Source of the DNA: Tannerellaceae bacterium
GTDB taxonomy: Bacteria > Bacteroidota > Bacteroidia > Bacteroidales > Tannerellaceae
NCBI GenBank assembly: GCA_031270665.1
Contig: JAISXD010000006.1
Span: 1-64,000, forward strand
Direction of reading: 5' to 3'
DNA length: 64,000 nt
The first letter of the stretch is position 1, and each line of letters begins with the position of its first letter. A program made the position numbers and the translations under genes. This document shows, piece after piece, positions 1 through 63,104 of the stretch. A model generated the notes under the pieces. It ran no database searches and was not told the origin of the DNA. It saw only the letters and a list, made by a program, of their open reading frames with translations.

Positions 1-155
1 CTTTTAGGAAGAAAGACCCACTTCGCACGCAAATAAGCTTAACTGACAGGGGATAAAATAACAAAATGACAAAAGGACAAAAATACCCAAATGACAAAAA
101 TATAAAAGATACCATACCCTTATATATTAGTTGTAAAACGGGGAAATGGTAAATA

Positions 156-24496: not shown

Positions 24497-24706
24497 GACT
24501 TGTTATTATAAACGTTTACGCATTATTCTTAACTTGCTGGAATAACAAATGTATACAAATATGTTGCCAAAATGCAAAAAAACACTATCTTGCTGTTGTT
24601 TTACCGGTATAATGGAAGAGCGGCAGTTAACGGCGGCTTCTGACAAAAAGGAAGCGCAGGGGGACGTTTCATGAAGGTAGCATCAAGGAATAAATTTATC
24701 TGATAC

Positions 24707-24816
24707 GGAGAATCATCGGAGGATCGTCGGAGAATCATCGGAGAATCATCGGAGGAACATAGGAGGAACATCGGAGAAGCACTTGAGGATCGTCGGAGGA
24801 TCACTTGAGGATCATC
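24707..24816. repeat. 11-bp-period degenerate tandem array, 10 copies
   Basis: GGAGAATCATC GGAGGATCGTC GGAGAATCATC GGAGAATCATC GGAGGAACATA GGAGGAACATC GGAGAAGCACT TGAGGATCGTC GGAGGATCACT TGAGGATCATC. Confidence 0.9.
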
Positions 24817-37802: not shown

Positions 37803-38531
37803 ATGGCTGAAGAAAAGAACACTGTATTCGTGGAGCTTTACGATTTGAAGCTTTCAGACAGGGAAGACGACCGCATGGGCCGCGTAGTAACGGACAAATC
37901 GCTGACGGAAGACGACCTGATAAGGCTGGCCGTCAACCGGGGCACGGATATCAATCCCGAAACACTCCGCGCATCCATCAAAATCCTGAAGGAAATCGCC
38001 ATCCGCGAGATTGCCAACGGGGCGTCGGTACAGTTCGGGCTGGGCTATTTCGCCCTCGACGTAAAAGGCGTTTTCGTAGGAGACAATGCCAAGTGGAACC
38101 CCAAGGTTAACAGCCTGCACGCCAAGGTGACCGCCAGCGCCGAACTGCGCACGGCGATACAGAACGTACACGTAGAGGTGCTGGGCATGGCAAGTTCGGG
38201 CACGGTGATTAACAGCGTAACGGATGTGTCGTCCGGCGAAGTGAACACGCGCCTCACGCCCGGTGGCGGCGTAAACCTGGAAGGGACGAAAATCAAGATT
38301 GCAGGACAGGACGGGCGCAACGGACTGATGTTCCTGGATGCCAATAACATCGTATACGATGTGTACCCCAAGAGCATACTGGTGAACGACCCGAAAAAGA
38401 TATCCTTCATCGTGCCGGCCCTGCCCAAAGGCGAGTACCGCCTGAGGCTCACCACGCAGTATTCCACTTCGAGCACGTTGCTCAAGGAGCCGCGTACCGT
38501 AGAGTTCGGCTATCCGCTCACGGTGAAATAG
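37803..38531 (+). CDS. HU-like DNA-binding domain plus Ig-like (DUF4469/HU-HIG type) protein, paralog 1
   Basis: 242 aa; 'RVVTDKSLTEDDLIRLAVNRGTDINPETLRASIKILKEIAIREIANGASVQFGLGYFALDVKG' (HU-like) then 'NTRLTPGGGVNLEGTKIKIAG...SFIVPALPKGEYRLRLTTQYSTSSTLLKEPRT'. Confidence 0.85.
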   Translation: MAEEKNTVFVELYDLKLSDREDDRMGRVVTDKSLTEDDLIRLAVNRGTDINPETLRASIKILKEIAIREIANGASVQFGLGYFALDVKGVFVGDNAKWNPKVNSLHAKVTASAELRTAIQNVHVEVLGMASSGTVINSVTDVSSGEVNTRLTPGGGVNLEGTKIKIAGQDGRNGLMFLDANNIVYDVYPKSILVNDPKKISFIVPALPKGEYRLRLTTQYSTSSTLLKEPRTVEFGYPLTVK

Positions 38532-38623
38532 GCCCTGCCCCGTGGGCACGACGTGCCCTCGCCCGTGGGTACGACAAGCCCTCGCCCGTGGGCACGACAG
38601 GCCCTCGCCCGTGGGCACGACGC
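38532..38623. repeat. 4 x 23-bp tandem array beginning immediately after the HU-HIG paralog 1 stop codon
   Basis: GCCCTGCCCCGTGGGCACGACGT / GCCCTCGCCCGTGGGTACGACAA / GCCCTCGCCCGTGGGCACGACAG / GCCCTCGCCCGTGGGCACGACGC. Confidence 0.95.
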
Positions 38624-41759: not shown

Positions 41760-44291
41760 ATGAAAACCAATTATCCGTCATCCGCCCTGCCGACAGAGGC
41801 AGCTTGTGCCAGTTATCCGTCATCCGTCCGCCGCAGGGAAGGCTACAAGGAAAAGCCTCTGCTGCCGGCAGCCCGTATCTTCTATCTGTTATCCGCCCTG
41901 CTTCTGCTGGCAGGTTGCACCCTGCCCCGTCAAAGGCAGGATAATCCGCTCACCTGCTTCTTCGATTCGCCCGCCACCATCTGGGAAGCCACCTTCCCCT
42001 TAGGCAACGGCCGCCTCGGCATGATGCCCGACGGAGGCATAGAAAAAGAAACCATCGTACTCAACGAAATATCCATGTGGTCGGGCGGCAGGCAGGAAAC
42101 CGGCAACCCCTACGCCATCTATGCCCTGCCCGCGATAAGGCGGCTGCTCTTCCAGGGCCGCAACGACGAAGCCCAGGAACTGATGTACCAATCCTTCGTA
42201 TGTAAAGGAGAAGGCAGCGGACAGGGCAGCGGCGCAAACGTCCCCTACGGCTCCTACCAGCTACTGGGCAACCTCACGCTCCACTATACCTATCCTGCCG
42301 GCGCCCCTTCCCCCCTGTCTTCATACCGCCGCGAATTAAACCTCCATAACGCCCTGTCTACCGTTACCTTCTGGAAAGGAGACGTCAGCTACGAGCGCGA
42401 GATGTTCACCTCCTTTGCCGGCGACCTGGGCGTCGTCCACCTGACAGCCAGCGCCGGTGAATCCATCCACTTCCGCCTGGGCCTCAACCGCCCCGAACGC
42501 TGTGAAGTAACAGCCAGCGGTAACGACCTGATCATGCGCGGGCAACTAACCAACGGAACCAACGGGAACGGAGTCCGCTACACAGCCTGCACCCGCGTAC
42601 TGTTACCCCAGGGAGGCAAAATAGAGCAAACCGGCACCACCCTTTCCATTACCGGCGCCACCGAAGCCTTGCTGTTGGTAAGCATGGCAACCGATTATTT
42701 CGGCCAGGATGCCGAAACCGCCGCAATGTCTAAAATAACAGCTTCGGAACAAAAAGACTACGCCACATTAAAGCAGGAACACCTCACCGAATACCAAAAG
42801 ATGTTCGGCCGCGTAAACCTCGATTTAGGCTGGTCCGAAAGAGCCACTCTCCCCATCAATGAACGCCTGCACGCCTTCCGGAAAGATAAGGACGACCCGG
42901 CCTTGGCTGCCCTCTATTTTCAATACGGACGCTACCTGTTGATATCCTCCACCCGCCCCGGTTTATTGCCCCCCAACCTGCAAGGCCTCTGGGCAAACAC
43001 CCTCCAAACACCCTGGAACGGCGACTATCACCTGAACATCAATCTGCAAATGAACCATTGGCCCGCCGAAATAACAAACCTCTCCGAACTTCACCTCCCC
43101 CTGATTGAATGGACCAAACAGCAGGTACCCAGCGGCGAACAGACAGCCAGCCTGTTCTACAACGCCCGTGGCTGGGTAACTCATATCCTGGGAAACGTAT
43201 GGGAGTTTACAGCCCCCGGCGAACACCCTTCCTGGGGAGCCACCAATACGTCGGCAGCCTGGCTGTGCGCCCACCTGTACCAGCATTATCTCTATACATT
43301 AGATAAAAGCTACCTGCAGGAAATCTACCCCGTAATGAAGGGAGCCTCCCTTTTCTTCGTAGATATGCTGGTAGAAGACCCGCGAAGCAACTACCTGGTA
43401 ACCGCCCCCACCACCTCGCCCGAAAACGCCTTCAGGCTGAATGGTAAAAACGTAAATATCTGTGCCGGCTCTACAATGGACAACCAGATAGTCCGTGAGC
43501 TATTCACCAATACAATAGAAGCCGCAACAATTCTGGGTACAGACCCCGAATTGACCGAAGAACTTACCAGCAAACGAAGCAGACTAATGCCAACAACCAT
43601 AGCGCCCGACGGCCGTATCATGGAATGGCTGGAGCCTTTTGAAGAGGCGGAACTACATCATCGCCACGTATCGCACCTGTATGGATTGCATCCGGGAAAT
43701 GAAATTTCCATCAGCAAAACGCCTGCCCTGGCAGAAGCCGCCCGCAAATCCCTTGAAGCGCGTGGCGACCTGAGTACCGGTTGGTCGATGGCTTGGAAGA
43801 TTAACTTTTGGGCGCGCCTGCACGATGGCGACCATGCCTTTAAGCTGCTCGGAGACTTGTTGACTCCCGTCGTCGGTTCAACCGGAGATATGCCGGGTGG
43901 CGGAGGGAGTTATCCCAATCTGTTCTGCGCCCATCCCCCCTTCCAGATTGATGGCAACTTTGGCGCCACGGCAGGTATTGCAGAGATGCTTTTACAAAGC
44001 CAGACGGGAGTTATCGAATTTCTTCCCGCCCTTCCCTCTGCATGGAAAGACGGAAACTTCGAAGGGCTGCGCGTGCGTGGCGGCGGTATCGTTTCGGCCC
44101 GTTGGAAGAATGTTCAATTAACAGAAGCATCGCTCAAAACGCCCCATGCAGGTACATTTAATATCAAATTGCCCGCAAATTCATTGAATCTGGATGTGAA
44201 GCTGAACCAAAAGCGATTGTCGCTACCGGTATCGGATGGCATATTATCTGTTGAAATGAAAGAGGGAGACGAGTTAATGCTTCAATTATAA
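41760..44291 (+). CDS. Glycoside hydrolase family 95 (alpha-L-fucosidase-type) lipoprotein
   Basis: ORF 41553..44291, ATG at 41760; 'FFDSPATIWEATFPLGNGRLGMMPDGGIEKETIVLNEISMWSGGRQE', 'NLQGLWANTLQTPWNGDYHLNINLQMNHWPAE'; lipobox LLLLAGC. Confidence 0.93.
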   Translation: MKTNYPSSALPTEAACASYPSSVRRREGYKEKPLLPAARIFYLLSALLLLAGCTLPRQRQDNPLTCFFDSPATIWEATFPLGNGRLGMMPDGGIEKETIVLNEISMWSGGRQETGNPYAIYALPAIRRLLFQGRNDEAQELMYQSFVCKGEGSGQGSGANVPYGSYQLLGNLTLHYTYPAGAPSPLSSYRRELNLHNALSTVTFWKGDVSYEREMFTSFAGDLGVVHLTASAGESIHFRLGLNRPERCEVTASGNDLIMRGQLTNGTNGNGVRYTACTRVLLPQGGKIEQTGTTLSITGATEALLLVSMATDYFGQDAETAAMSKITASEQKDYATLKQEHLTEYQKMFGRVNLDLGWSERATLPINERLHAFRKDKDDPALAALYFQYGRYLLISSTRPGLLPPNLQGLWANTLQTPWNGDYHLNINLQMNHWPAEITNLSELHLPLIEWTKQQVPSGEQTASLFYNARGWVTHILGNVWEFTAPGEHPSWGATNTSAAWLCAHLYQHYLYTLDKSYLQEIYPVMKGASLFFVDMLVEDPRSNYLVTAPTTSPENAFRLNGKNVNICAGSTMDNQIVRELFTNTIEAATILGTDPELTEELTSKRSRLMPTTIAPDGRIMEWLEPFEEAELHHRHVSHLYGLHPGNEISISKTPALAEAARKSLEARGDLSTGWSMAWKINFWARLHDGDHAFKLLGDLLTPVVGSTGDMPGGGGSYPNLFCAHPPFQIDGNFGATAGIAEMLLQSQTGVIEFLPALPSAWKDGNFEGLRVRGGGIVSARWKNVQLTEASLKTPHAGTFNIKLPANSLNLDVKLNQKRLSLPVSDGILSVEMKEGDELMLQL

Positions 44292-44300
44292 AAAAGAAAA

Positions 44301-44374
44301 GGTTGTCATCACGACAACCAATCTTCATTGCTAACCTTAAATCTAATACCATGAAAAACACAGTGCAAATATAA
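44301..44374 (+). other. Hairpin GGTTGTC-ATCAC-GACAACC plus A-rich leader and mini-ORF MKNTVQI*
   Basis: Perfect 7-bp stem 44301-44319; ATG 44351..TAA 44374. Confidence 0.5.
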
Positions 44375-61602: not shown

Positions 61603-62202
61603 ATGAGGATAGGCGTCTTGGCCCTGCAGGGCGGATTTGCAGAACATATCCGGATGCTTCGCTCCCTGCAGGCCGATACCTTCGAGATACGCCGGAGAGA
61701 AGACGCGCTGGGGAGGATGGACGGGCTGGTGCTGCCCGGCGGCGAGAGCACCGCTATCGGCAAGCTGCTGAAAGACCTCGGCCTGTTCGGCCCGCTGAAA
61801 GAGCGGATACGAGGCGGCCTGCCCACCTTCGGCACCTGCGCAGGCATGATATTGCTGGCACGCAGGATTAGCGGCACGGACACGGCGTATTTCGGCGCCA
61901 TAGACATCGAGGTGAAGCGGAACGCCTTCGGACGCCAACTGGGCAGCTTCTTCACCGAGGCCCCCTTCAAAGGGATAGGCACCGTACCGATGACCTTCAT
62001 ACGCGCCCCCTACATCGAAAGGGCCGCGCCGGAGGTAGAAATCCTCTCGCTGGCAGACGGCCATCCCGTAGCCGCCCGCCAGCGACACGTACTGGCCACC
62101 GCCTGCCATCCCGAACTGACGGCAGACAGCCGCATTCACCGTTATTTTATCGAGCAGCTATGCGCAGCAGGGGCGGGTCGCAGGGACTGCCTCACGCTTT
62201 AA
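61603..62202 (+). CDS. pdxT: Pyridoxal 5'-phosphate synthase glutaminase subunit PdxT
   Basis: MRIGVLALQGGFAEHIRML...VLPGGESTAIGKLL...FGTCAGMILLAR...ATACHPELTAD. Confidence 0.97.
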   Translation: MRIGVLALQGGFAEHIRMLRSLQADTFEIRRREDALGRMDGLVLPGGESTAIGKLLKDLGLFGPLKERIRGGLPTFGTCAGMILLARRISGTDTAYFGAIDIEVKRNAFGRQLGSFFTEAPFKGIGTVPMTFIRAPYIERAAPEVEILSLADGHPVAARQRHVLATACHPELTADSRIHRYFIEQLCAAGAGRRDCLTL

Positions 62203-62234: not shown

Positions 62235-63053
62235 ATGCAGGAAGAGAAAAACACCGTGCTCGTAGAACTCTACGACTCAACGTTCCCGGAAAGGCCCGAC
62301 GACCGTTACGGGCGGATAGTAACCCCCAAGTCGCTGCGCATGGACGACTTGATAAACACCGCCGTCCGCCGGCGGACAGACCTCAATGCGGAAACCCTCC
62401 GCGCCGCCCTCGGCATACTGACGGAGATAGCGGTGAAAGAAATCGCAAACGGCGCCTCGGTAGAGTTCGGCCCGGGGTTCTTCAGCCTCGGCGTAAAGGG
62501 CCCCTTCACCGGCAGCCAACCCAAGTGGAACCCTGCCGTGAACGCCCTGCAGCTAAAGGCCATCCCCGGCGCCGGACTGCGCACCGCTATCGAAGGGATA
62601 CACGTAAACATCCGCGGGATGGCAGGCCCGCAAACCATCGTCAACAAGGTGACAGACGCCACTACGGGGCAGGAAAACAAACGTCTCACCCCGGGCGGCG
62701 GCGCCGAACTGGACGGCAGGCGAATCAAGATTGCAGGCGACAACCCGGCAAACGGCATCCGCCTGCACAGAGAGGACAGCCTGCACAGAGAGGACAGCCT
62801 GAACAATCAGGACGGCCAAGACAGCCAAGCGGTATACCCCATCGCGCCCGAAGCCATACTGCTCAACAGCCCGAAGAAGGTAACCTTCATCGTCCCTCCC
62901 TCCCTGCCCCCCGGCCATTACAAGCTGAGCCTCACCACGCAGTACACAAGTTCTCCTACGCTCCTCAAGGAGCCCCATACATACCTGCTCGACTACATCC
63001 TGGAGGTGGCGCCGTCATCTGCCCCACATAACGATGTTATCTGCCCCACATAA
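62235..63053 (+). CDS. HU-like DNA-binding domain plus Ig-like (DUF4469/HU-HIG type) protein, paralog 2
   Basis: MQEEKNTVLVELYDSTFPERPDDRYGRIVTPKSLRMDDLINTAVRRRTDLNAETLRAALGILTEIAVKEIANGASVEFGPGFFSLGVKG; collinear with paralog 1 throughout. Confidence 0.85.
   Translation: MQEEKNTVLVELYDSTFPERPDDRYGRIVTPKSLRMDDLINTAVRRRTDLNAETLRAALGILTEIAVKEIANGASVEFGPGFFSLGVKGPFTGSQPKWNPAVNALQLKAIPGAGLRTAIEGIHVNIRGMAGPQTIVNKVTDATTGQENKRLTPGGGAELDGRRIKIAGDNPANGIRLHREDSLHREDSLNNQDGQDSQAVYPIAPEAILLNSPKKVTFIVPPSLPPGHYKLSLTTQYTSSPTLLKEPHTYLLDYILEVAPSSAPHNDVICPT
62764..62817 (+). repeat. In-frame 18-bp intragenic repeat (2 exact plus 1 degenerate copy) in HU-HIG paralog 2
   Basis: CTGCACAGAGAGGACAGC x2 then CTGAACAATCAGGACGGC; encodes LHREDS-LHREDS-LNNQDG. 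Confidence 0.9.
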
Positions 63054-63104
63054 CGGCGTTATCTGCCCCACATAATGCCGTTATCTGCCCCACATAACGG
63101 CAGG
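63017..63104. repeat. 4 x 22-bp tandem array spanning the stop codon of HU-HIG paralog 2
   Basis: ATCTGCCCCACATAACGATGTT / ATCTGCCCCACATAACGGCGTT / ATCTGCCCCACATAATGCCGTT / ATCTGCCCCACATAACGGCAGG. Confidence 0.95.

Follow-up and report, generated by a model that had tools for sequence, protein, structure and literature searches.

A tandem array of 22–24-bp units at the 3′ end of the gene is the rule of the HU-DUF4469 family in Bacteroidales, and we consider it likely from the sequences that each of these genes forms a unit with a tandem operator array for its own protein, probably serving local control. In loci chosen by protein similarity only, such an array lay within 200 bp of the stop codon at 77/109 HU-DUF4469 genes with room for one, compared with 6/535 other genes of the same loci (lenient cut; odds ratio 212, p 8.7e-66). 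Under a stricter cut, arrays were found at 33/44 HU-DUF4469 genes compared with 24/880 others. The recurrent gene-array pairing that a sequence-only reading had suggested from two paralogues thus holds far beyond the stretch of DNA in which it was noticed. TRF reported an array at 91/125 HU-DUF4469 genes with room, of period 22 (5), 23 (77) or 24 (9), and 26 of the genes where it reported none have a mean lag-23 autocorrelation of 21.6/40 matches compared with 12.6–15.2 at other lags. Roughly one gene in four lacks a clear array. In P. distasonis, the array lies 5–43 bp past the stop in 6/6 of the HU-DUF4469 genes obtained, and other Bacteroidales families have one at at least 8 of the 14 genes fetched. 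The paralogues are spread over the chromosome and number up to about 20 per genome, as in some Parabacteroides genomes. A search with P0001 (see below) against viral contigs gave no match, and matches in phage and plasmid collections were limited to two phage scaffolds without annotation and six P. distasonis records that resemble chromosomal pieces. Most members have the array 3′ of the gene, but it is 5′ in the MKYKL type and in some of the HU-HIG genes, and this varied position gives no single regulatory logic.

The window, i.e. the whole 64,000-nucleotide stretch of Tannerellaceae DNA that was analysed, belongs to an incomplete genome (1.97 Mb, 91 contigs, 58% complete). In it lie, both on the forward strand, the HU-DUF4469 gene P0001 (62235–63053, 272 aa; an alternative in-frame start upstream at 62160 is possible) and its paralogue P0002 (37803–38531, 242 aa). 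P0001 matches Pfam PF14848 at residues 11–128 (72.9 bits) and PF14734 at residues 137–250 (83.1 bits), and P0002 matches the same families with 95.6 and 92.5 bits, all above cut-off. Both proteins had been labelled HU-HIG from the letters alone. That label has to be replaced by HU-DNA_bdg (PF14848) plus DUF4469 (PF14734), given that the HU-HIG (PF18291) scores of 20.1 and 19.3 bits for P0001 and P0002 fall below the cut-off of 26.2. The palindromic 22-bp × 4 array of P0001 occupies 63013–63104 on the forward strand (palindrome GTTATCTGCCCCACATAAC), and TRF places it at 63013–63099 with period 22, 4.0 copies and a score of 139. Its four units (ATCTGCCCCACATAACGnnGTT) were located where the sequence-only reading had put them, at 63017–63038, 63039–63060, 63061–63082 and 63083–63104, overlapping the gene end: the first units are coding, and the array continues through the stop, which follows the C-terminus ...HNDVICPT and falls within the second unit. 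The short inverted repeats described at the junctions are likewise present, at 63050–63062 (ATAACGGCGTTAT) and 63028–63040 (ATAACGATGTTAT). P0002 does, as had been noticed, bear an unrelated array in a similar layout, here of 23 bp × 3.9 compared with 22 bp × 4.0. It lies at 38532–38621 on the forward strand, beginning 1 bp past the stop (TRF score 138; core GCCCGTGGGC / GTGCCC...GGGCAC). Markov shuffles of the whole window (n = 40) gave a top score of 58 for periods 15–30; the scores of 139 and 138 therefore exclude chance. A pattern search of the genome found no second array of the P0002 unit. The third HU-DUF4469 copy of this genome (C13) is without an array and has, about 45 bp 3′ of its stop, a transposase-like reading frame that is an IS candidate by inspection only. 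The window also contains, at 44289–44361 on the reverse strand, a match to the Bacteroidetes paralogous sRNA BTncRNA_FopS (Rfam RF04319, 78.9 bits) and, at 24706–24816, an 11-bp tandem repeat (CGGAGGATCAT) of about 10 copies.

The units of one gene mostly bear no sequence relation to those of another, yet they are palindromic, the mean dyad score of the arrays being 5.94 compared with 3.86 ± 0.13 in shuffles. With copy 1 alone defining the axis and the other copies scored, variability is 0.013–0.032 at 4–6 bp from the dyad, compared with 0.10–0.15 at the centre and outside (spacer); for arm and non-arm positions it is 0.056 and 0.168, respectively (p 8e-9). Changes within arrays are one-sided in 219 cases and paired compensatory in 6, the latter close to chance. 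As one-sided changes far outnumber compensatory ones and the arms are conserved, it is the sequence that is kept and not the pairing. The arrays thereby bear the mark of a putative sequence-specific dimer operator with half-sites one helical turn apart, and what was found, conserved dyad-symmetric half-sites that covary with a protein surface, is what would place them with operator arrays of such dimers. CRISPR was rejected, the units being contiguous, 22–24 bp long and without spacers.

The sequence-only reading had raised the idea of cognate specificity, with array sequence varying together with HU-domain residues. Array sequence does covary with a protein segment, but this segment is a loop that belongs to DUF4469, the Ig-like domain, and not to the HU domain. 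Once overall identity was removed, the best predictor of array similarity (rank 1 of 237 residue windows) was residues 221–225 of P0002, a variable loop held between conserved TTQY and LLKEPRT in DUF4469 (TTQY-xxxxx-LLKEPRT). In P0002 this predicted specificity loop is STSST, encoded at 38463–38477 (forward strand), and the aligned segment of P0001 is TSSPT, residues 238–242 in TTQY-TSSPT-LLKEPHT, encoded at 62946–62960 (forward strand). Among protein pairs at least 60% identical, the loop-array correlation was 0.516 with 0/2000 permutations, gene pairs not being independent observations and the permutations a guide rather than exact; over all pairs at least 42% identical the correlation is small (r 0.16). 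Some of the genes had first drawn attention to the loop, and the scan was rerun without this discovery subset. The loop then ranked first at ≥60% identity (r 0.445, 0/2000 permutations) and at ≥50% (r 0.172, 2/2000), and eleventh at the loosest cut of 42% (r 0.105, 15/2000). Residue windows 228–242, which are nearer the array, have r near 0; physical linkage therefore does not explain the covariation. A single-column scan gave no column above the permutation maximum, and its top five include three that fall in the loop (222, 223 and 225). Individual cases show the same pattern: L227, L239 and L240 have the loop AG-YS and AACA/TGTT-type arms in common although their flanking residues differ, and L216 and L221 agree in loop and downstream sequence even though L221 has an L068-like N-terminus. 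In an AlphaFold2 model (mean pLDDT 89.9, pTM 0.50), the loop sits between strands 210–218 and 231–234. Moreover, the period follows the protein clade, since for 8/14 arrays with a period other than 23 the nearest relative has the same period, compared with 0.99 expected.

Array similarity drops fast between relatives, and protein pairs that are 88–96% identical can have unrelated arrays. Such complete change between close paralogues means that unrelated arrays reflect fast turnover and not necessarily independent origin. The unrelated arrays of P0001 and P0002 had been taken to argue against one duplication carrying its array along, which proved too strong: paralogues L110 and L113 (93% identical) have the array and its upstream flank in common, and L036, an orthologue of P0001, keeps a related array (similarity 0.74). 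In an Odoribacter MAG, paralogues L144:8001–8744 and L147:8001–8747 have identical first 90 residues, different C-terminal halves and unrelated arrays, and their nucleotide similarity ends at the stop codon.

The array unit of P0001 is not private to its gene. A diverged 22-bp array of this unit lies at G000:C2:13000-13110 between convergent genes (RNase HII-like and SusD-like, named by reading the sequence), without an adjacent HU gene and with flanks unrelated to those in the window. In two genomes of the same genus, the 16-bp palindrome GATGNARCGNTRCATC occurs in about six arrays of G009, being near background in other genomes, and TGGAACRNNCRTTCCA occurs in about seven arrays of G001. Sharing of arrays was seen in 6/248 comparisons within genomes and 0/613 between them (p 5e-4). 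One of these six within-genome cases, L132, also contains about 90 bp of the 3′ end of an HU gene and is thus a duplicated fragment, so that segments do get copied. The one operator tested in P. gordonii (G099) was found only at its own gene, hence a genome-wide role is not general, and BLAST of two P. distasonis arrays against the plasmid collection gave no dispersed copies. What stays constant is thus the local array.

Other repeats were seen in the same genomes. A family of 21-bp arrays (TTTCTGCGCGGAAATCGCCCG) in G000 (L017:4176–4355, L023:4927–5040, L028:12242–12476, L029:146–375 and L030:9799–10002) has no adjoining HU-DUF4469 gene, and G001, G009 and G011 have 21-bp arrays of other sequences. 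No common neighbouring protein family was found for the 21-bp arrays without HU genes, which are possibly another protein-array system of period 21. G000 also has a second dispersed 22-bp family (AAACCATTATAATGCTTTTAGC-like; L015:16552, L019:387, L020:9779, L028:3736, L021:7978), and short dispersed arrays of 8–16-bp units (AATGACGGTA-like and AAAATGAC-like) occur at window positions 55–114 and at L015:16438, L019:516, L028:3861 and L016:10591.

Arrays also accompany relatives of the family, on the other side of the gene. HU-HIG (PF18291) genes without DUF4469 (L253, L254, L266, L270, L274 and L282) have 22-bp palindromic arrays 28–74 bp upstream of the start, some of them near a TAnnTTTG-like promoter motif, and two of these six have weak Pfam helix-turn-helix matches in the C-terminus (winged-helix-like in places). 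These arrays are likely autoregulatory operators. MKYKL-type members, which combine PF18291 with DUF4469, have 22-bp arrays upstream of the gene, and HU-HIG genes with glycine-rich tails have no arrays. Given that arrays occur with DUF4469 or other C-termini and none with glycine tails, the array seems to accompany a C-terminal domain predicted to read DNA.

In the model that we consider likely, the HU-DUF4469 protein would act as a presumed symmetric dimer. The variable DUF4469 loop would read the half-sites, two short blocks about 10–11 bp, or one helical turn, apart, and the HU part would dimerise and bend or pack the DNA. Sites every 22–24 bp would allow several dimers to load side by side just 3′ of the gene. 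Less certainly, the loaded array may have a local effect, forming an autoregulatory or road-block nucleoprotein complex that sits between the HU gene and its mostly co-directional neighbour downstream, and the dispersed arrays of the window's genus may be secondary targets or duplicates. Provided that binding is real, autoregulation or a transcription road-block is the function we would prefer, at about an even chance. The gene after the array is co-directional in 66/85 cases, with a median gap of 111 bp, and is often a predicted surface or secreted protein (judged from N-termini). The promoter motif TAnnTTTG is found 22 times before the HU gene compared with 7.4 expected, and 12 times after the array compared with 4.0 expected.

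That the arrays are structural targets, cruciforms or hairpins whose palindromic form the HU domain recognises regardless of sequence, would explain unrelated sequences with one period, and the arrays are indeed palindromic while their sequences differ. A passage of PMC5683647 describes HU as avidly binding forks, three- and four-way junctions and nicks without sequence specificity, which would suit such recognition. We nevertheless regard it as quite unlikely, because the arms keep their sequence (219 one-sided against 6 compensatory changes, the latter close to chance) and array sequence varies together with a loop in the Ig-like domain. The idea that the arrays are 3′ untranslated RNA elements, be they terminators or stability or processing hairpins, likewise leaves the loop-array covariation unaccounted for, and we hold it to be highly improbable even if palindromes at the 3′ end of a gene would fit it. 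Arrays with more GT than AC on the sense strand number 26 compared with 11 of the reverse, a weak hint in its favour, but the totals (GT:AC 69:54, p 0.21) hold no significant excess of G-U over A-C. A run of at least five Ts follows within 120 bp of 17/90 arrays compared with about 11 by shuffling; with so weak an excess of the hairpin-then-T-run pattern, intrinsic terminators were rejected. An Rfam search gave no match at the arrays, and the MKYKL-type array lies upstream of its gene. The earlier suggestion of an RNA processing or termination element thus found no clear support, and the RNA-hairpin and cruciform readings were set aside after the strand-polarity and compensatory-change tests.

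With tandem 23-nt units that are intergenic and, in some genomes, dispersed, the arrays might also be mobile or selfish minisatellites (cf. BrickBuilt MITEs and REP sequences) whose adjacency to HU genes is incidental, and the dispersed array L132 with its piece of HU gene end speaks for this. However, the arrays are associated with a single gene family and with its 3′ end, the flanks of same-unit arrays share little (nothing for the window/C2 pair, a short stretch in G009) and the unit tested in P. gordonii occurs only at its own gene, which makes incidental minisatellites very unlikely. A role as centromere-like or macrodomain anchors in chromosome organisation, comparable to that of sopC for SopB, would also fit tandem inverted-repeat sites that adjoin a gene encoding a DNA-binding protein and, in the genus of the window, several same-unit arrays dispersed in each genome. 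This too is unlikely, in that up to about 20 paralogues per genome are scattered over the chromosome and the one operator tested in P. gordonii is confined to its local array.

HU proteins as a rule lack sequence specificity and are usually seen as general DNA packers. If the arrays are operators read by the DUF4469 loop, a Bacteroidales chromosome may encode a repertoire of orthogonal HU-Ig proteins, up to dozens of them, each reading with a five-residue loop a private DNA address that lies by its own gene and changes fast. Such a self-addressing system, without a described counterpart and perhaps used to control chromatin gene by gene or in conflict with mobile DNA, is a tentative view to which we would give somewhat less than an even chance. 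In a large protein family of abundant gut bacteria that has no assigned function, the presumed binding sites are spelled out beside each gene, and the loop and array data give a handle on the function of proteins present in about 20 copies in some Parabacteroides. Moreover, near-identical natural pairs with different sites make the putative DNA-reading rule of DUF4469, possibly a simple loop-to-half-site code, directly testable.

The only solved relative of the HU-DNA_bdg plus DUF4469 proteins is PDB 4FMR (BVU_2165, Bacteroides vulgatus). A literature search on DUF4469, HU-HIG and 4FMR found no description of an associated DNA array; the protein domains were already known, and the arrays are without description in the literature searched. 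Burroughs and colleagues (2017) reportedly described how HU domains have expanded in Bacteroidetes and suggested that they act against invading DNA. In iteron plasmids, a Rep gene has adjacent 19–22-bp iterons, e.g. P1 incA behind repA, and plasmid F has sopB-sopC. The likeness lies in a DNA-binding protein gene with a tandem array of its sites beside, and often behind, the gene, in a specificity that differs between relatives and, for iterons, in periods near two helical turns. In contrast, HU-DUF4469 genes are chromosomal, with many paralogues per genome, they encode an HU-Ig protein, and they are not known to have a replication or partition partner. REP-RAYT systems (REPtrons), as generally known, likewise combine a protein gene with palindromic repeats and further repeat copies dispersed in the same genome, whereas HU-DUF4469 repeats are phased tandem arrays, unrelated in sequence from paralogue to paralogue, and their proteins are without a Y1 transposase domain. 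REP-RAYT was rejected for the window proteins, in which Pfam finds only HU-type and DUF4469 domains and no Y1 (TnpA_REP-like) transposase. BrickBuilt, a 23-nt minisatellite MITE of Porphyromonas gingivalis (PMC4596501), is similar in its tandem 23-nt intergenic units and belongs to the same bacterial order, and one copy in a table of that paper adjoins an HU gene (PF00216). It differs in having leader and tail segments with IS5-type terminal repeats (PMC4596501). A BrickBuilt-like MITE was rejected on flank similarity, no leader or tail common to the same-unit arrays compared being found: flank similarity is absent between the window array and that of C2, two G009 copies have only a 27-bp stretch in common, and two G001 array pairs share flank, one of them because the flank is a fragment of an HU gene end. 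Without claiming membership in any of them, we note that the layout resembles that of iterons, sopC and REP-RAYT.
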